A program made the translations under genes and the position numbers. Below are positions 1,404-19,361 of a DNA stretch of 23,906 bases, one piece after another. The stretch is from a virus. The notes below the pieces were generated by a model that was given only the letters and a program-made list of their open reading frames with translations, was not told the DNA's origin and did not search any database. The DNA lies in IMG/VR virus record IMGVR_UViG_3300049491_000397, positions 1-23,906 of that record, one strand, 5' to 3'. The stretch's first letter is position 1. Each line of letters begins with the position of its first letter.

Positions 1404-2909
1404 TTATTCCCAGCTCACGTTCACGTTGCCCAAGTCGAAGGTGTCGGTGCCGGCGCCGTCTGTCATCAGCTGGAGCTGCGTCAACGGTTGGCTGAGGGCC
1501 TTCGACCCGCTGCCGATCGCGGCCGGTCCGGTGGCCGTGTCGCTGTTGCTGATGTTCGAGGTTTCCACCCAGGTGTTCGTGGCGATGTCGATCAGCTGGA
1601 GGTGCATGATGCCGTGCAGGACGCCGGCGGCCACGCCGGATCCGACGAGCAGAAAGCCGGTGCTATGGTTCGCGGTCGTGCCCGCGCCGTTGCCGCCTGA
1701 GCATTGACCGGAATAGCCGGCCGTCTCGAGGCCGCCGGCGTCACCGAGCTGGACCTGCAATTTCAACGTGCCCGACACCGAGACGCCGTTCAGCATCACG
1801 TAGATGTGCCGGGCCCAGGCCGGGATCCCAGAGAACAATTTCGTCGTGCCCGATGTCGTGGCGACCATCGCGCCGGCGAGGACGCTGCGCTTATTCGAGC
1901 CGATGATTTTCCAATTGGTCCCGTCGCTCAGGATCGTGATCGATTGGTGCCCGGGGAACAAAATCACGGTCAGGTCTCCGTCGATCGTCTCCGACGCGTT
2001 GGCGTCGACGGTGGTCAGGCCGGTCCCGGAATTCCGAATGGTCACATAGAAGCCGCTCCCCAAGGTGGCCGCGGCCGTGAGGCTGATCGTGAAGGTGCCG
2101 CTCGTCACGTCGATCACCGATCCGCGGTCGGCTTCGACGATCGTATAGAGGGCGCTCTTGGCCGTGATGACGAGCGATTTGCCGGCGCATCGCGCGACCG
2201 ATTTCCAGTTGCTGCCGTCGCACACCATAAAAATCGAATCCCCAGGGAACAGCAGGACCGTGGCGGCGCCGTCGATCGTCTCGGCCGCGTTCCCGTCGAC
2301 GGTGATAATGCCGACGCCGGAATTCCGGACCGGCTGTTCAAACCCCTTGCCGGCCGAGGCCGCGGCGAGGAGCGTCAAGGTGAACGTGTTCGCGGTGCAA
2401 TCGATCAGCTGCCCGCGGTCCGTCACGGTGGTCGTGTAGATCGCGGACTTCGAGAGGAGCGGCGCGAAGTCGGCCGACGGGAATCGGGCAATCTCGAGGA
2501 GGACCGTGCCTACCCGCTTCACGAAGAGCCAATGGCGGGCGGTGTCGGCGAGCGTGAAATCGCCGGCGGTCTTCAGGGTGATCTGCCCGGATCCGCCGGC
2601 CGAGTTCTTGATCACGACGGCGCGCGCGCTGCTCGCGCATCGCAGGAGGAGGCATTGCCCGTCGTCCATGTTTGTGAGGGCGATGTTCGTCAGGTCGTCG
2701 GTGGCCGCGGCGCCTTCGGTGTCGACGATCAAGTTGCCGGCGCCGCTCGCCGCCGGCGTGATCACGCCGGTTGCAATCGTGAGGGCCTGCTCCGCCACGC
2801 CGGCGAACGGGATTTGTTTCGCGGTCCGGAGGAGGTCCTCCAGGAAGGTCTTCTGTTCGCCCTCGGTGCGGGCGGCGTTGCTCGGATACCCTGCTGCTGG
2901 AAATGTCAT
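1404..2909 (-). CDS. Tail fibre-like protein with internal duplication
   Basis: This 501-residue protein follows the hub gene, where side-fibre genes usually lie. Residues 1-150 include an N-terminal helical part (FLEDLLRTAKQI) and a strand-rich Thr/Ala section. Two copies of a beta module of about 86 residues follow at 153-238 and 250-336. They share K-S-A-(I/L)-Y, DRG-x-(L/V)-ID, R-NSG-x-G, ETIDG and DG-x-NWK. The C-terminal 150 residues (FSGIPAWARHIYVMLNGVSV, NWV-type strands and FDLGNVNVSWE) resemble a tip domain. The start has AAAGGA upstream, and the stop lies 5 bases before the candidate endolysin. This is probably a receptor-binding fibre; the receptor cannot be told. Confidence 0.72.
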   Translation of the reverse strand: MTFPAAGYPSNAARTEGEQKTFLEDLLRTAKQIPFAGVAEQALTIATGVITPAASGAGNLIVDTEGAAATDDLTNIALTNMDDGQCLLLRCASSARAVVIKNSAGGSGQITLKTAGDFTLADTARHWLFVKRVGTVLLEIARFPSADFAPLLSKSAIYTTTVTDRGQLIDCTANTFTLTLLAAASAGKGFEQPVRNSGVGIITVDGNAAETIDGAATVLLFPGDSIFMVCDGSNWKSVARCAGKSLVITAKSALYTIVEADRGSVIDVTSGTFTISLTAAATLGSGFYVTIRNSGTGLTTVDANASETIDGDLTVILFPGHQSITILSDGTNWKIIGSNKRSVLAGAMVATTSGTTKLFSGIPAWARHIYVMLNGVSVSGTLKLQVQLGDAGGLETAGYSGQCSGGNGAGTTANHSTGFLLVGSGVAAGVLHGIMHLQLIDIATNTWVETSNISNSDTATGPAAIGSGSKALSQPLTQLQLMTDGAGTDTFDLGNVNVSWE

Positions 2910-9750: not shown

Positions 9751-12300
9751 CTATCCTCCTGCTTTCGGACTCAGCTTGAAGCGCCCGGACATGGCGCCGT
9801 CGACGTCGCCGCTCGCGATCGCCTGGCGCGTCGCGTCTCGAATCGTGATGTAGAGCTGCCGGGCGCCGTTCGCCCCCATGCCGGCCGAGGTCTTCACGTC
9901 GGCCTTGGCGTAGTTGTTCACGATCACGTTGACGTCGGGGCTCGTCACGGTGATCGGGGTCTCGGTCGGTCTCGTCGCGCGGTCCTCCATGCGCTTGATC
10001 TCGTGGACGTCGCCGCGGGAGAGGACGATCTCGCCGGGCGTCAACATCGCCGGGACCGTGTCCCGGTTGCCGGTGCCCAACACGGGACCGCCGCGGAGGA
10101 AATGCCGGGGGATCATCGGGATCCCGCCGCCGGTCTTGGCGAACACCGAGGGGCCGCCGAAATCGGACCCGCCGCCGGCGAGCTGGGTGCCGGCCGGGAC
10201 GGTGCCGCCGGTGTTCGCAAAGGCGAGCGCCGCCGTGGCGATCGCTTTGGCCGCGGCCATCGCGGCGAGCTGGGCGATGATCTGCCCCACCATGAGCTTG
10301 ACGAAATCGAGGAGGCTCCGCATGACGTCCTTGAAGCTCTTAATCTTGCCGTTCAGGAAATCGTCGAAAAACCGAGCAAAGAAACTTTCCATGGTCTGCA
10401 CCATCCGGCGGGCGATGTCGGCGCCGAGCCCGAAGCCGGACTTCGTGTCGTCCACGTAGCGTTTCATCCCTTTCGCCCACCCGGCGAACACGTCATCCGA
10501 GGCCCGCTCGTTGGCTTCCCCGAGGGCCGTGAGGGATTGCAGCTCGATCGCTTTCTTCGCCTCCTGGGTCATGCTGGTCCGGGTGAGGATCAACTCCGCG
10601 AGCTGGTCCTCGTGGCGCGCCCAATGCTGCAGGAGCTCCCGCGATTCCTCGAGCGTCAGGTCGGTTTGTTTCGCCAGGTTCGCCACCAGCAGGTCGGTTT
10701 CATGGGCATAGCGTTGCGCCGTCGACGCGCCGATCTGGACGTCGTAATTCAGCCGGGCCTGGGCCAGCGCGATCGCCTCGGATTGCCGGGTCTCCCGGTC
10801 CGCCTTAATCGCCGCGGCGCCGGCAAACAGCAGGTCGAGCTGTTGCTTCGCCGTTTGGTTCTGGGCCTCCTGGACCTGGGCTTCGCCTTCGAGCTTCGCG
10901 TTCGTGATTTGCTGGGCGAGCACCAGCCCCTGCTGGGTCAGGTCCGCGACGCGCTTCTGATGATCGGCCTCGATCTTCTGGCGCTCGGTGGCCGTGCCGC
11001 CAAACTTGGCGAGCTGTTCCTTGTGGCCCTGGTCTTCGAGGATGAGCTGGCGTTGCACGTAGCCGGCGGCGGATTCGAGTTCCTGCTGCTTGATCCGGGC
11101 CCGGTCTTCGGCCGCGCGGACGAGCGACGACTGCCCGGCCTGCTCCGCGTTGTCCGCCAGGATCTGCTGGCGCGCGAACCCGAGCTTGGACAGCTCGAGC
11201 TCGTTTTTGATCGCCTGCTCTTTCGCCGCAAACTGGGCCTTGAATTGTTCGATGTCTGCTTTCGCCGGGCCCTGACTGATTTTCTTTTTCTTCGCCGGCT
11301 GCTCGCTCGCGGGCGGAAACGGTTTCACGATCTCGATCGGGACGATCCCTTCGGCGGCCTTGACCTTCATCTCCTCAGCCATCTTGGCGATCCGGTCCAT
11401 CCGGGCGCCCAGTTCCTTGGCCTTCTCTTCGCTGAAAATGTCGAGGATGTTGCTGGCCAGGACGATGATCTGGGCGTTCACCGTGGCGACGCTGATAAAG
11501 AAATCCTTAAAGGCGAACACCAGGCCGCGGATAAAAATGCCGGCGGCCTTCGCGCCTTCGCCCACGCCCATCTCTTTCAGGACGCCGAGGAATTCGTTCA
11601 TGACCGGGATCAGCTCTTTGCCGATCGCGATCGTCATCCCTTTCACGCCGGCCTCGAGGGTCTTCAGCTCGTCGTTGAACTTCTCCGCGGCCTTCGCGTC
11701 CTGCTCCGACATCACGAGCCCGAGGCGCCCGGCCTCGGCCATGAGGGCCTTGATCCCATCCTTGCCCTGGTTCAGGAAGGGGATGAGCTCGAGCCCGGCC
11801 TTGCCGAAGAGCTTGACCGCCGCTTCGGTTTTGCCGGCGTCGTCTTCGGCCGCGGCGAAGGCGGCCGCGACATCGAGGAGGACGTCCTCGGTCGGTCGCA
11901 TCTGTCCGGCGGTGGTGAGGGCGGTGACGCCGAGGCGGCGAAACACGGCCTCACCGTCGCCGACGCCGCGCGCCGCGTCCGTCATGTTTTGGGACAAAAA
12001 CTTCAGGCCCTTGGCGAGCTGGGCATGTTCCACGTCGGCGAGCTTCGCGGCGAACTGCAGCCCGGCCAAGGCCTTGATGTTCACGCCGACCTTCTGGCTG
12101 GTCTTCAGGAGCTCGTCGCCATAGTTGGCCGTACTCTTCGCAATCCCGAAGAGGATCGTGCCGGCGCCGGCGAGCTGGACCCGCCAATCCTTGATGAAGC
12201 TGCCGAAGGATCCGAGGGCGCTCTGCTGTTTCTTGAGCTCGGCATTGAACTGGTCCGCGACCAGTTTCAGCACGAGGGCGAGTTCCCGGTTGTCTACCAT
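9751..12300 (-). CDS. Tape measure protein
   Basis: This 849-residue protein (about the same as lambda gpH, 853) sets tail length. It opens with a helical part containing ALGSFGSFIKDWRVQLAGAG, a hydrophobic pair of segments near residues 250-290, a long charged coiled coil at about 340-560 (rich in Ala, Gln, Glu and Lys), and a conserved C-terminal region. That region has RRMVQTMESFFARFFDDFLNG near residue 635, then a long Ala-rich hydrophobic helix at about 660-694, typical of the lambda-type tape measure C-terminus. The last 120 residues are Gly-rich and beta-like (PRHFLRGGPVLGTGNRDTVP, MLTPGEIVLS). The start overlaps the previous stop as TAATG. The next gene's AGGAGG overlaps its stop. Confidence 0.9.
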   Translation of the reverse strand: MVDNRELALVLKLVADQFNAELKKQQSALGSFGSFIKDWRVQLAGAGTILFGIAKSTANYGDELLKTSQKVGVNIKALAGLQFAAKLADVEHAQLAKGLKFLSQNMTDAARGVGDGEAVFRRLGVTALTTAGQMRPTEDVLLDVAAAFAAAEDDAGKTEAAVKLFGKAGLELIPFLNQGKDGIKALMAEAGRLGLVMSEQDAKAAEKFNDELKTLEAGVKGMTIAIGKELIPVMNEFLGVLKEMGVGEGAKAAGIFIRGLVFAFKDFFISVATVNAQIIVLASNILDIFSEEKAKELGARMDRIAKMAEEMKVKAAEGIVPIEIVKPFPPASEQPAKKKKISQGPAKADIEQFKAQFAAKEQAIKNELELSKLGFARQQILADNAEQAGQSSLVRAAEDRARIKQQELESAAGYVQRQLILEDQGHKEQLAKFGGTATERQKIEADHQKRVADLTQQGLVLAQQITNAKLEGEAQVQEAQNQTAKQQLDLLFAGAAAIKADRETRQSEAIALAQARLNYDVQIGASTAQRYAHETDLLVANLAKQTDLTLEESRELLQHWARHEDQLAELILTRTSMTQEAKKAIELQSLTALGEANERASDDVFAGWAKGMKRYVDDTKSGFGLGADIARRMVQTMESFFARFFDDFLNGKIKSFKDVMRSLLDFVKLMVGQIIAQLAAMAAAKAIATAALAFANTGGTVPAGTQLAGGGSDFGGPSVFAKTGGGIPMIPRHFLRGGPVLGTGNRDTVPAMLTPGEIVLSRGDVHEIKRMEDRATRPTETPITVTSPDVNVIVNNYAKADVKTSAGMGANGARQLYITIRDATRQAIASGDVDGAMSGRFKLSPKAGG

Positions 12301-13385
12301 TATTGCACCCCTACAATGTCTCGGGCGTGTGGTTGTGCGCTATCGAGGAGGACGCCCCGGGGGCAGGCGCCGACGTGTCCGGATCCGGCCGGCAGGAGGC
12401 AGCTCACCCACTGGGTCCCGGGCATCCGTCCGTAGATCGCCTGGGCGCTCGGGGTGGCCCCGCTGATGCCGGTCGAGTAAATAAAATCAACGAGATAGAC
12501 GGTGTAGACGATCGGCTGGGCCGTGTCGGTTTCGCTCGCCTGCCCGATCGCCTTCCGCTTCCGGCTCCCGATCGGCTGGGCCAGGTCGGTTTCCGTCGCC
12601 TGATTCACGGTGACGGTGTGCCCGAGGCCGCTCTTGATCGCCGTCATGGGCTGGGCCAGGTCGGTCTCTGCCCCCAGGCCGAGGAGTTTCGCCTTGGCGT
12701 GGGTCAGCGCCTGGGCCAGGTCGGTTTCGCTCGCCTGGGTCAAAGCACGGCGTTTCTGGGGGGTGATCGGCTGGGCCAGGTCGGTCTCCGCCGGCTGCCC
12801 GATCGCCCGGGTCTTCAGGGACGTGATCGGCTGGGCCAGGTCCGTCTCCGTCACCTGGCCGACGGCGACGGTGTGGCCGCCGCCCGTCAGGATCGCGGTC
12901 ATGGGCTGGGCGGTGTCGGTCTCGGTGGTCTGCCCGAGGAGCTGGGTCTTCCGGGACGTCAGGGCCTGGGCCGTGTCCGTCTCCGCCGTCTGGTTCACGA
13001 GCCGGCGCTTCGGGTTGTTCGTAATCGCCTGGGCCAGATCGGTTTCCGTGGTCTGCCCGACGAGCCGGCGCTTCGGGTTGTTCGTGATCGCCTGGGCGAG
13101 ATCGGTTTCTGTGGTCTGGTTCACCAGCCGGCGCTTCGGCGCCCACGCGATCGGTTGCGCGAGGTCCGTCTCGGTCGTCTGTCCGATCGCCTTCGTCTTC
13201 CGGTGCGTGATCGGCTGGGCGAGCTCGGTCTCGGTGGCCTGGTTGATGAGCCGGCGTTTGGGGTTCCACGCGATGGGCTGGGCGGTGTCGGTTTCGCTCG
13301 CCTGCCCGACGGCGACGGTCTGCGCCCCGGACACCGGCGGATCGAGGTCTTCGTCAAACCATCGCTGGATGATCAGGCTATTCAT
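12300..13385 (-). CDS. Tandem-repeat protein (ETDxAQ repeats)
   Basis: This 361-residue protein consists largely of about 13 consecutive units of roughly 20 residues with the core (G/N)Q-x-x-ETD-x-AQ-(P/A)-(I/L/M), followed by a basic segment such as KRRL or KTKA. A short N-terminal leader precedes (MNSLIIQRWFDEDLDPP), and a non-repeat C-terminal part of about 70 residues follows (VYTVYLVDFIYSTG...). Acidic and basic blocks alternate, so the units may form a fibre-like solenoid. Repeats of this type occur in environmental and actinobacterial phage structural proteins, in my recollection, with no known role. It lies just before the tape measure gene, to which it is coupled by TAATG. Function is unknown; a virion or fibre component is the best guess. 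Confidence 0.7.
   Translation of the reverse strand: MNSLIIQRWFDEDLDPPVSGAQTVAVGQASETDTAQPIAWNPKRRLINQATETELAQPITHRKTKAIGQTTETDLAQPIAWAPKRRLVNQTTETDLAQAITNNPKRRLVGQTTETDLAQAITNNPKRRLVNQTAETDTAQALTSRKTQLLGQTTETDTAQPMTAILTGGGHTVAVGQVTETDLAQPITSLKTRAIGQPAETDLAQPITPQKRRALTQASETDLAQALTHAKAKLLGLGAETDLAQPMTAIKSGLGHTVTVNQATETDLAQPIGSRKRKAIGQASETDTAQPIVYTVYLVDFIYSTGISGATPSAQAIYGRMPGTQWVSCLLPAGSGHVGACPRGVLLDSAQPHARDIVGVQ
12510..13319 (-). repeat. About 13 tandem copies of a 60-base coding repeat
   Basis: The repeat array encodes the ETDxAQ units. DNA copies share runs such as CTGGGCCAGGTCGGT on the plus strand. Most units are about 60 bases, while two are longer (about 75 bases) and carry a GxGHTV linker. 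The units at about 13000-13130 are nearly identical in DNA, which suggests recent duplication. Confidence 0.8.
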
Positions 13386-14119
13386 GCGAAGGCCTCACGC
13401 ATCCAGGCGGCGCTGGTCAGGTCCGGCCATTGGCCTTCGTCGTCTTCGTGGGTCACGATCGGGGGGACCCGCTCGGGGTGGTTCAGCGGGATCCGGTAGA
13501 AGGCCGCGACCGACGCCCAGAGCTGGTCCCCGGTGTCGATCACGCTAAAGGTCGTCTCGATCGTCTGGATGGCATCGATGTCCCGCATCGCGACGCTGAG
13601 CCCGGGGTTCGAGAGGCCTGGGTCGGTAGCCGAAACCACGAAGGCGACCTCGTTGAATCCCTTGCTCCAACTCCGTCCGTCGTTCGCGGCGTCGGCCGAA
13701 TCGGACGCGCAAATCGCGAGGGCGACGGTCTGCGGGTAGGTCGTCGACGCGGTGGTCCCGGTCGAGAGGGAGGTGACGGCGCTCACGCCAGAATCGGCCT
13801 CCTGGGCCACATCGAAGACGCGCCCTTCCTGAATCGCGCCGACCCAGGCCGAGGCCTTTTGCGTCGTGGTCCATTGCCATTGGACGCTGGTCTCGGTGCC
13901 GTCGCTGTATTTGTAGGCCCAGGCGCCCGAGACGTTCGTGGAAGTGTAGTTATGGATCAGGGTCCATCCGCTGGGCGTCGTGATCGTGCTCGAGTCCTTG
14001 TCGATCGCAATGGCCGTGACGAGCACCGTTCCTCGTGGAACAATCCCGAAGTTCACGGTCAAGCTCGTCACCGTGACGTCGTTCGAATCGGCCGGGATGT
14101 TGCGGATCAACGTGGACAT
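13382..14119 (-). CDS. Beta-rich presumed virion protein
   Basis: This 245-residue protein begins MSTLIRNIPADSNDVTVTSL. Its Thr/Ser-rich strands (VLVTAIAIDKDSSTITTPSG, WTLIHNYTSTNVSGAWAYKY, TASTTYPQTVALAICASDSA) look like a jelly-roll or Ig-like surface domain. Similar stretches, with PSGWTLI followed by a YK(Y/V)-type strand, are frequent in phage and bacterial surface proteins. The C-terminal 50 residues (YRIPLNHPERVPPIVTHEDD, WPDLTSAAWMREAFA) appear separate and may be a linker or docking part. The ATG directly follows the previous TAG, and its own stop overlaps the repeat-protein start as ATGA. No specific function is assigned. Confidence 0.6.
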   Translation of the reverse strand: MSTLIRNIPADSNDVTVTSLTVNFGIVPRGTVLVTAIAIDKDSSTITTPSGWTLIHNYTSTNVSGAWAYKYSDGTETSVQWQWTTTQKASAWVGAIQEGRVFDVAQEADSGVSAVTSLSTGTTASTTYPQTVALAICASDSADAANDGRSWSKGFNEVAFVVSATDPGLSNPGLSVAMRDIDAIQTIETTFSVIDTGDQLWASVAAFYRIPLNHPERVPPIVTHEDDEGQWPDLTSAAWMREAFA

Positions 14120-14563
14120 CTAGAGGCCTCTCGCGATCGTCGCGCCCTGCACCTGAACGTGGATGTGGATCCGGTCGATCGGTGCCTGATGGATGACGGT
14201 GTGCGGGTCCCGGTAATTCACTTCATAGAGGTAGCCGGCCTCGAGGTGGACCGCCTCCTGGCTGTCGGGCCAGCACATGAGGATCCGTGGGTCGGTAATG
14301 AGGGGGAGCTGAAACCGGCGCTCATCGCGCGCGCCAAACATCGGGGCGTCCGTGTGGACCGGAATGCCTTGGTAGGCCGGAAGCTTTCGGCAGAGGATGC
14401 GCACGGCTGTCCCTCCTAGCTGTAGCGAAGCGACGAAGCCCGCGAGCCACGGAGGGGACGAGATCCACCCGTTGGTCCCGCCGCTGTCGACAAAGGGTGC
14501 CGACAGAACGGCCTCGCGCGCGGCCCGGATGTCGACCGCCCGGATCTTCCACCAGCAGGCCAT
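14120..14563 (-). CDS. Asp/Asn beta-hydroxylase-like 2-oxoglutarate Fe(II) oxygenase
   Basis: This 147-residue protein is shaped like the catalytic domain of the aspartyl/asparaginyl beta-hydroxylase family. It has HTD at 70-72, RRFQLPLITDP at 82-92, and GYLYEVNYRDPHTVIH at 110-125, followed by DRIHIHV at 130-136. The expected Fe(II) ligands would be His70, Asp72 and His121, with Arg131 as the 2-oxoglutarate-binding residue. Such enzymes hydroxylate side chains using 2-oxoglutarate and oxygen. The start at 14563 lies two bases after the preceding stop; the frame is open further upstream but that part overlaps the preceding gene. Why a tail operon should hold it is unknown: a virion protein could be the substrate, or the fold could be reused structurally. 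Confidence 0.7.
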   Translation of the reverse strand: MACWWKIRAVDIRAAREAVLSAPFVDSGGTNGWISSPPWLAGFVASLQLGGTAVRILCRKLPAYQGIPVHTDAPMFGARDERRFQLPLITDPRILMCWPDSQEAVHLEAGYLYEVNYRDPHTVIHQAPIDRIHIHVQVQGATIARGL

Positions 14564-14565
14564 GA

Positions 14566-15105
14566 TTAGCTCAGGGCGATCTGCTTCAAGTCGTCGAGCG
14601 TCGCCGCGGCGTCGATGCGCGGGTCGTTCATCGTGTCTCGGATGGTTTGCCGCTCGGCCTCGATCGCCTCCGCGTCGGCGGTCTTGCCCTGGGCGGTGGC
14701 GCCGGTCCATTTGCCGTCGAGGATGAGCAGCTGTTCGATGCCTTGGTGGCGAAGCAGTTCCTTGTGGAGGACCCGGGCCTTCTCCATGTTGTGCTCGATC
14801 TTGCCGCCGACGTCCTCGAGCGCGTTCCGGTGGGCCCGGTTCTCGTCGAACATACGGTGCTCGGCATCGGACAGCCGGCGCCAGCTCACCATCGCTGGGT
14901 CTCCCATGCGGGCCCAGTAGCGGGTGATTCGGGACAATTCGAATTCGATGTTGGCGTCCGTGTCCTCGCGCGCCCACAGGCCGGCCTTCGCGTCGACCGG
15001 CAGCCATCCGCCCTGGGGCTGGCGCGGGAATCGCCCGGTGAGCTGCATGGCGACATGGGCGACGGATCCGTCGGCTCGACTCACTCCGAGATAGATTTCG
15101 GCCAT
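14566..15105 (-). CDS. Helical protein of unknown function next to fibre gene
   Basis: This 179-residue protein opens with a short beta part, MAEIYLGVSRADGSVAHVAM, then QLTGRFPRQPQGGWLPVDAK, and then becomes strongly helical and charged from about residue 50 to the end (SDAEHRMFDENRAHRNALED, MEKARVLHKELLRHQGI, EAIEAERQTIRDTMNDP). The helical part could form a coiled coil. It starts two bases after the fibre-like gene stop and ends two bases before the hydroxylase-like gene. A fibre-assembly helper is conceivable because of position, but no known chaperone family was recognised. Confidence 0.6.
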   Translation of the reverse strand: MAEIYLGVSRADGSVAHVAMQLTGRFPRQPQGGWLPVDAKAGLWAREDTDANIEFELSRITRYWARMGDPAMVSWRRLSDAEHRMFDENRAHRNALEDVGGKIEHNMEKARVLHKELLRHQGIEQLLILDGKWTGATAQGKTADAEAIEAERQTIRDTMNDPRIDAAATLDDLKQIALS

Positions 15106-15107
15106 GG

Positions 15108-15905
15108 TTATTGGTCCCCGAAGCAGGCCCAGAAGTAGTTCTGCGGGTCCTGCGCCACAAATGTGATTGCCGTCTGGTCGTAGCTTTCAATCTCGAACAC
15201 GCCGGCCGTCGGGGAGGCGTTCCGGATCGCGTGGTCTTCGACGCCGGTGGCGGTGAGCGCCGTGACCGTCCGCTCGAGGCTGGCGACGACCGAGTAGTTC
15301 GCGCTGGAGAAATCGGTCCCGATATTCACACCCAAGCGTCCGGTCCCGGTGTCGGTGACGCTCGTCGTGTTCCAATTCACGGTGAGGGAGGTGCCGGCGC
15401 CGACCGCCTTGCCCCAGCATTTACAGGCGCCCGGGTGCCAGTTGAATCCCTGGGGCGTCACATATTTATCGGTAGCGGTGCCCGCTTCCATCTCGGCTTG
15501 CGTGGCGGCGTTGCCCACCGAGGGGTAGACGCCGCCGTTCAAGTCGTAGTGAATCCAGACGCCGCTCTGGGTCAGGACCAACGATTCCCCGGCCAGCAAG
15601 ATCACTTTCGCCAGGGTCTCCACGTTGGTGCCGTCGGTATGTTCCACCGTGACGGTGCAGGGCGTCGACGCGTGGTTGTTGTAGATGTTGACGTGCTTGA
15701 CGTTCCGCCGCCGGTTCGAGGTCGTGCAGTCCAGGATCGTCGTCGTCGTGGCCGTCGTGATCGAGGCCGTGTTGGTGCGGACGATGTCCTGGACCACCGG
15801 CGGGGTGGCGTTGTCCGCCTCCATCGCCGACACATGGACTTCGATGTCGGCCGTGGCGCTCGTGACCAAGCGCAGAATGTCGGCCGTGGCTCGCAGGATC
15901 AGCAT
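15108..15905 (-). CDS. Tail fibre-like beta-rich protein
   Basis: This 265-residue protein starts behind AAGGGAG, seven bases upstream, which overlaps the previous stop. The N-terminal half has Thr-rich strands (NTASITTATTTTILDC) and a jelly-roll-like piece NVKHVNIYNNHASTPCTVTV followed by LLAGESLVLTQSGVWIHYD. The middle contains NAATQAEMEAGTATDKYVTP, a linker typical of phage tail fibre and receptor-binding proteins ahead of their tip domain. The C-terminal domain, about 110 residues, has strands ending FWACFGDQ. This makes a fibre or adhesin subunit likely. The exact role in the particle is unknown. Confidence 0.62.
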   Translation of the reverse strand: MLILRATADILRLVTSATADIEVHVSAMEADNATPPVVQDIVRTNTASITTATTTTILDCTTSNRRRNVKHVNIYNNHASTPCTVTVEHTDGTNVETLAKVILLAGESLVLTQSGVWIHYDLNGGVYPSVGNAATQAEMEAGTATDKYVTPQGFNWHPGACKCWGKAVGAGTSLTVNWNTTSVTDTGTGRLGVNIGTDFSSANYSVVASLERTVTALTATGVEDHAIRNASPTAGVFEIESYDQTAITFVAQDPQNYFWACFGDQ

Positions 15906-18416: not shown

Positions 18417-19361
18417 TTAGGTGTACGCGATGCTAATTTCATCGTTCCCGCCGGCTGCATTCCTCGGGAGGTTGAAGTCGGCCGTCACCGTGGCCAGGCC
18501 GTTCCGATCGCTTTCGCTGATCTTGGCGAACTGGCAGACCGGCGCGCTTACGATGCAGATGTTGCCGGCGGATCCGGTGTGGCGGAAGGTCAGGACGCCG
18601 GTCGTGCCGGCGACCCAGCGGCCGTAAAAATCGAACGTGGCCACGAGCTCGAGCTCGGGATCGACGCTGCCCTTCGGGTCCCGTCCGGTGAGGAGCGTAC
18701 TGATGAAGCCTTCCGCCTTGTTGATGTCCGCGCGGGGTTCGAGTTTGTTACCCATGTCAAAGCTGACCTGGCTGGCGAAGGCGGAAAAGGCCGCGATGCT
18801 GAAGGTCGCATTGAGCAGGGGAATCGGCACGGTCGTCTCCACGCCGGAGGGCGTGATCAGGGCCACGTCGCTCACGCCGTCGTAGACGCCCACGAATTCA
18901 AATTCCCACATGCCTGGCTCGCCGTTCTTGGCGCTGTATTTCACATTGCCGCGGGCGCCGCGGATCTGTTCCTTGACGCCGTCCCGGTAGACCGCAATGG
19001 TCAGGGAAGGAATCAAGGCGAGGCTGGACTCGGGCGTGTAGGTGACGCTCGTCACGGCGACGACCGTCTCGGTGAACCCGCAGGCCCGCAGGAGCTTGCC
19101 GAAGGCCGGCGCGGTCCCGGCGGTGCCGGACCCCTTGTTCTCGACCTTGAAGTTGATCTTGCCCAGCTTGGTGCCGGGGATGGCCTTGAACCGGGAGAGG
19201 GAGACGTCGAGAATGTCCCGGTCGAACATCGAAATGTCCGCCTCAAACTTGGGCTCCATGATCTGAAAGCTGGCGTCGGCGCCGGCCAGGGCAATGGCGG
19301 TGCCCTCTGTCACTTCGACTTTCGCGGCCACGACCGTTCGATTGCTCAGAATTCTGCCCAT
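18417..19361 (-). CDS. Major tail tube protein
   Basis: This 314-residue protein probably forms the tail tube, the counterpart of lambda gpV. It has the expected length range, sits directly before the G/GT-type chaperone pair, and is dominated by beta strands. Segments consistent with the family are the N-terminal VVAAKVEVTEGTAIAL with FEADISMFDRD, the central LGKINFKVENKGSGTAGTAP followed by FGKLLRACGF, and YTPESSLALIPSLTIAVYRDG. The motif GKLLRACGF after a Gly/Ala/Pro turn is a common marker of phage tail tube proteins. The start has AGGAGG 8 bases upstream. Its TAA stop is part of the Shine-Dalgarno region TAAGAGGAG of the chaperone gene. Confidence 0.85.
   Translation of the reverse strand: MGRILSNRTVVAAKVEVTEGTAIALAGADASFQIMEPKFEADISMFDRDILDVSLSRFKAIPGTKLGKINFKVENKGSGTAGTAPAFGKLLRACGFTETVVAVTSVTYTPESSLALIPSLTIAVYRDGVKEQIRGARGNVKYSAKNGEPGMWEFEFVGVYDGVSDVALITPSGVETTVPIPLLNATFSIAAFSAFASQVSFDMGNKLEPRADINKAEGFISTLLTGRDPKGSVDPELELVATFDFYGRWVAGTTGVLTFRHTGSAGNICIVSAPVCQFAKISESDRNGLATVTADFNLPRNAAGGNDEISIAYT

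Follow-up and report, generated by a model that had tools for sequence, protein, structure and literature searches.

Genetic organization of the locus

The analysed window is the whole of a 23,906-base IMG/VR record of an uncultured bacterial virus, with a G+C content of 64%. Its gene order is that of a lambda-like siphovirus, the recognised genes lying on the minus strand: a head protease, a small head gene (phrog_673), the major capsid protein, a tail terminator, a probable tail-tube gene (18417–19361, minus strand, matching phrog_290 'minor tail protein'), the cassette described here, the tape measure gene (9751–12300, minus strand), minor tail proteins, and a homologue of the central tail fibre J. 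A first-pass annotation had placed a 2-oxoglutarate (2OG) hydroxylase-like gene at 14120–14563, inside a tail operon. The coordinates are right, except that the gene is read from the minus strand, and the operon setting is borne out, the gene being situated between the probable tail-tube and tape measure genes, all three on the same strand. A plus-strand reading of 14120–14563 is ruled out by stop codons interrupting the frame. The lambda-like gene order around it places the hydroxylase gene among the late structural genes.

The hydroxylase open reading frame is intact, running on the minus strand from an ATG at 14563 to a TAG ending at 14120, and codes for a 147-aa protein which sequence, profile, and structure model identify as a stand-alone, PF05118-like Fe(II)/2OG oxygenase of putative activity. 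Upstream, the stop codon of a gene for a 179-aa tail-assembly-chaperone-like protein (14566–15105, minus strand, phrog_20196) ends 2 nucleotides before the hydroxylase ATG; the homologue of this protein in locus L045 weakly matches PF16778 (Phage_tail_APC) and the PHROGs category 'tail fiber assembly'. Next to it lies the gene for a 265-aa tail-fibre-like protein (15108–15905, minus strand), the C-terminal domain of which matches phrog_11355 'tail fiber protein'. Downstream, the ATG of a gene for a 245-aa beta-rich protein (13382–14119, minus strand) directly follows the hydroxylase stop, and a gene for a 361-aa protein (12300–13385, minus strand) comes next. The 265-, 245-, and 361-aa proteins are candidate substrates of the enzyme.

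The 361-aa protein has an N-terminal 'SLIIQRWFDEDL' tag followed by 'TETDLAQPI' repeats of ca. 21 aa, with a period of 63 nucleotides. In the homologous position in L042, L045, L079, and L081 the same tag is followed by entirely different short repeats, which suggests that the 361-aa protein is a candidate rapidly diversifying adhesin. The 245-aa protein ends in 'DDEGQWPDLTSAAW', its C-terminal 'DDEGQWPDL..W' tag being common to cassette homologues; the otherwise dissimilar homologues in L041 and L042 end in similar 'DD(E/D)GH(W/F)N(D/E)L...W' tags, possibly forming a shared docking tail.

With 188 matching stretches, the viral family of the 265-aa protein is a large one. Many of its members have only the first ca. 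130–145 residues in common, joined to other C-terminal regions, a mosaic resembling that of modular tail fibres. Genes of this type also occur in tandem, in two or three copies (L090, 4419–6789; L094, 5998–7583). The cyanophage Mel-JY33 of Microcystis (L070, 2308–4318) carries weakly similar C-terminal domains together with a chaperone-like gene, and may be an isolate suited to work on the cassette proteins. Elsewhere in the window, after the gene for the central tail fibre J, a 501-aa protein (1404–2909, minus strand) matches Phage_depo_C (PF25692, E=6.6e-6) and, weakly, Gp5_C repeats, making it a possible depolymerase or tail spike.

Assignment to the 2OG oxygenases

The residues singled out in the first-pass annotation, i.e. 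H70-T71-D72, H121, and R131, as well as the stretches RRFQLPLITDP and GYLYEVNYRDPHTVIH, are all found in the minus-strand frame. The pattern is more than chance: in a tblastn search the window protein matched gp4 of the mycobacteriophage LilMcDreamy (E=5e-7), itself a PF05118 protein (E=1.5e-10), and the sole invariant residues in an alignment of 19 viral sequences are H70, D72, R83, P87, L88, T90, H121, R131, and H133, a set which includes those to be expected of an iron and 2OG site. Weaker matches to other mycobacteriophages (Tiffany, AugsMagnumOpus, and others; E=0.05) were discarded as chance, the one that was checked being antisense to the annotated gene.

Against PF05118 (Asp_Arg_Hydrox) the window protein scores 12 bits, which is under the Pfam gathering cut-off of 22.6 bits. 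Five stand-alone members, the window protein included, were scanned in this way, and the cut-off was passed by three (L004, 24.4; L041, 26.6; L069, 25.2), while the L072 protein had no match at E<=0.1. Neither PHROGs nor NCBIfam has a family for the stand-alone hydroxylase, and a search of PDB sequences with the single window protein gave no match. A profile of the viral alignment did match PDB entries, namely the L-proline cis-4-hydroxylase (cis-P4H; 4p7w, 8e-9), Cpz10 (7v4f, 8e-7), and proline 3-hydroxylase (P3H; 1e5r, 3e-4); in 4p7w and 1e5r the equivalent triad residues fall opposite H70, D72, and H121. The assignment of the window protein as a divergent Fe(II)/2OG oxygenase of the Asp/Asn/Pro-hydroxylase type (PF05118-like) is thus well supported, and so is the enzyme class first proposed, by homology, by a double-stranded beta helix model, and by a triad aligned with known iron ligands. 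The narrower name 'Asp/Asn beta-hydroxylase' is too specific, as the closest solved relatives act on L-proline or on a nucleoside-antibiotic precursor.

Structure model and active site

AlphaFold2 run with the alignment gave a confident model (pLDDT 91.2, pTM 0.86), whose eight core strands form a double-stranded beta helix; that alignment contained recognised hydroxylases, which could favour this fold. The lack of a double-stranded beta helix had been named beforehand as grounds for rejecting the assignment, and the model has one. A single-sequence AlphaFold model was set aside (pLDDT 36). The top-ranked PDB chains for the model are 2OG oxygenases with Z scores of 12–15, the best being the beta-hydroxylase Cpz10 (Z 14.6, rmsd 2.2 A over 128 residues), followed by several others, including P3H (Z 13.2) and cis-P4H (Z 12.7). 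Human AspH (6yyu, E=9e-5) and a prolyl hydroxylase complexed with the translation factor EF-Tu (4iw3) are also among the fold matches.

In P3H the iron ligands are H107, D109, and H158, and the 2OG-binding arginine is R168 (PMC9968057). The window protein has the same spacing, with an HxD motif, a His 51 residues after the first one, and an Arg 10 residues later; the 10-residue step is also found in Cpz10, whose site comprises H115, D117, H160, and R170 (PMC9814697). Alignment and model thus support a match of H70, D72, H121, and R131 to the published iron and 2OG ligands, with the metal triad apparently intact. H124 of P3H, which also helps to hold 2OG, corresponds by position to residue 85, which is Gln (codon CAG) in the window; the remaining 18 aligned sequences have His here, as do the five further stand-alone members. 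P3H binds the substrate carboxylate through three basic residues, R95, R97, and R122, of which R97 and R122 are among the 'handlebar' residues (PMC9968057); in a sequence alignment K60 and R83 of the window protein fall near R97 and R122, and plausibly match these two. R83, Q85 (His in the relatives), and K60 are probable contacts of 2OG or of the substrate.

Distribution of the hydroxylase gene

Alignment-based scans of viral contigs revealed a stand-alone subfamily of ca. 140–148 aa in six phage lineages including the window; a scan with the single protein had given no relatives. Identity to the window protein is 46% for L004/L005, 46% for L041 and its copies, 41% for L069, 48% for L072, and 46% for L074. 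At this divergence (41–48% identity for the other five) the catalytic residues H70, D72, H121, and R131 are invariant in all six. No relatives were detected in the genomes of 84,980 species in two scans of pattern-level sensitivity.

In all six lineages the hydroxylase gene adjoins, or lies within two genes of, homologues of the 265-aa and chaperone-like 179-aa genes. The neighbours are 40–85% (265-aa protein) and 46–50% (chaperone-like protein in L004 and L041) identical to those of the window. The linkage persists in L069, where the hydroxylase gene precedes the 265-aa gene rather than following the chaperone-like one. Patterns of the hydroxylase alone recovered every lineage but L074, so the gene context of those lineages was not selected for.

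A scan for the 265-aa protein yielded 80 loci. This protein occurs in each of 29 distinct full-length cassettes and the hydroxylase in six of them, a fraction that is approximate, as contig ends truncate some of the 23 negative cassettes (L078, L090, L095, L096, L099, and L105). On the tree of the 265-aa protein the presence of the hydroxylase needs at least five changes, three of them forced by well-supported branches. The hydroxylase is therefore an optional part of the cassette, with at least three to five gains or losses, and because of this patchiness its linkage to the cassette is not one of simple inheritance. In cassettes lacking it, genes for small or beta-rich proteins come directly, or almost directly, after the chaperone-like gene, and there is often a repeat protein with a 'WFDEDL'-type N-terminus. 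The absence of the hydroxylase from 23 of the 29 indicates that these tails can do without hydroxylation. Among the columns of the 265-aa protein only one, I247, is conserved solely in the presence of the hydroxylase; it is uninformative, and none convincingly separates carriers from non-carriers.

Proposed function

Judging from homology, the fold model, and the published relatives, the enzyme is probably catalytically active. H70, D72, and H121 would hold the iron, and R131, with R83 and Q85 nearby, would hold 2OG; O2 would be activated and 2OG decarboxylated to succinate and CO2, giving an Fe(IV)-oxo species that would insert one oxygen atom into a C–H bond. The target would be a residue of a beta-rich virion protein of the cassette, e.g. 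the 265-aa tail-fibre-like protein or the variable adjoining ones, with a gain of 16 Da. The modification would take place during late gene expression and may tune adhesin stability or receptor binding. Against catalysis speaks Q85, in place of the His whose equivalent helps to hold 2OG in P3H.

The main argument for hydroxylation of a cassette protein is that the linkage survives sequence divergence, re-ordering of genes, and repeated gain and loss. The first-pass annotation had suggested a virion protein as a target, and this suggestion stands as far as genomic association goes, the gene being retained in one and the same tail-fibre cassette by all six lineages. Against it speak the small-molecule substrates of the nearest solved enzymes, the lack of a hydroxylase gene in most cassettes, and the columns of the 265-aa protein, which gave no substrate signature. 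We give about even chances to the reading in which the gene encodes a competent Fe(II)/2OG hydroxylase, optional in a tail-fibre/adhesin cassette and most likely hydroxylating a beta-rich virion protein.

An unlikely alternative is that the enzyme acts on a small molecule (free proline, Asp/Asn, or a host metabolite, for example) and occupies a cargo position in the cassette by chance. Its best fold and profile matches, Cpz10, cis-P4H, and P3H, are all small-molecule hydroxylases, K60 and R83 may by alignment take the place of the P3H 'handlebar', and the gene is optional. However, one would not expect a metabolic gene to follow virion proteins around; this gene stays in the late tail cassette in six lineages out of six, even where the gene order differs, and the window protein does not have the extra C-terminal region of the ca. 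290-aa P3H and cis-P4H chains.

The chances are somewhat poorer that the enzyme modifies a host target, either aiding infection or excluding superinfecting phages. That target might be a surface protein, a translation factor, as the EF-Tu complex among the fold matches would allow, or lipid A, which is hydroxylated by LpxO, a membrane-associated member of PF05118. The patchy distribution would fit a host-interaction gene, but the position among late tail genes suggests expression together with virion parts, and the window protein sequence, unlike LpxO, shows no evident membrane segment. Still less probable is a structural role, in which the jelly-roll fold would serve as a virion component (an adhesin or a chaperone partner) and catalysis would be weak or lost: the gene is surrounded by virion genes and Q85 replaces the conserved 2OG-anchoring His, yet invariance of H70, D72, H121, and R131 over six lineages at ca. 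45% identity would be expected only if catalysis were selected. DNA repair and nitrogen signalling are the usual explanations for phage 2OG oxygenases; a role in DNA modification or repair is not preferred here, because inspection of the cassettes turned up no recognisable gene of DNA metabolism.

Returning to the modification of virion proteins, the conserved linkage suggests that a tail protein is chemically modified by the virus that encodes it. More tentatively, phage-specific protein hydroxylases might modify tail-fibre/adhesin proteins and be exchanged as an optional cassette module, virion hydroxylation being a switchable trait that affects receptor binding. To our knowledge, enzymatic hydroxylation is not generally considered for phage tail proteins, and a literature search in which subscription journals were under-represented found no report of hydroxylated phage virion proteins. 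A single adhesin cassette with a repeatedly gained or lost dedicated hydroxylase offers a concrete case for testing. Its candidate substrates lie within three genes, and the expected +16 Da shift, which would require both 2OG and O2, can be measured easily. Some of the many phage 2OG oxygenases that are still unassigned would also gain a function in this way.

Comparison with known systems

A close relative in UniProt is A0A6J5T9Y0 of an uncultured Caudovirales phage, which is of the same length (141 aa) and fold (TM 0.89), 42% identical, and evidently a member of the same stand-alone subfamily; it exists only as a database record under the automatic name 'Aspartyl/asparaginy/proline hydroxylase'. 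Human AspH belongs to the same fold superfamily and Pfam family. It has TPR domains and two His iron ligands without a carboxylate, and acts on Asp/Asn of EGF-like domains. The window protein is a single domain with an HTD motif, lacking both the TPR region and the His/His site, and since it differs from AspH in size, in the HxD motif, and in the absence of TPR, it should not be called AspH. The carboxylate of its HxD motif is as in the L-proline hydroxylases and Cpz10.

Cpz10, the caprazamycin beta-hydroxylase (PDB 7v4f/m/n/o/p), is the best structural match and shares HxD...H with an Arg ten residues later (PMC9814697), but is only 22% identical, with chains of 182–197 residues, a nucleoside-antibiotic precursor as substrate, and a second iron site. 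P3H and cis-P4H share the HxD/H triad and the 2OG-binding Arg; they are free-proline enzymes of ca. 290 aa, 12–13% identical, with an additional C-terminal region, a two-part architecture absent from the 147-aa window protein.

Among viruses, a gene annotated as Asp/Asn hydroxylase belongs to the core of pelagimyophages (PMC7029224) and is present in the cyanophages P-HM1/P-HM2 (PMC3037559) and in a Limnohabitans phage (PMC12195039). The pelagimyophage and cyanophage PF05118 genes and LilMcDreamy gp4 share RFH(I/L)PLIT and the HxD...H...R core with the window protein, but these longer relatives code for 211–433 aa where the start is clear, and that of L006 has a second 2OG-oxygenase domain. 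LilMcDreamy gp4 lies near the terminase genes, in contrast to the tail-cassette position of the stand-alone hydroxylases. The window enzyme is thus a divergent, previously undescribed variant of the PF05118-type phage hydroxylases; such genes were known before, whereas the repeated, specific tie of the stand-alone form to a tail-fibre cassette appears to be new and unreported.
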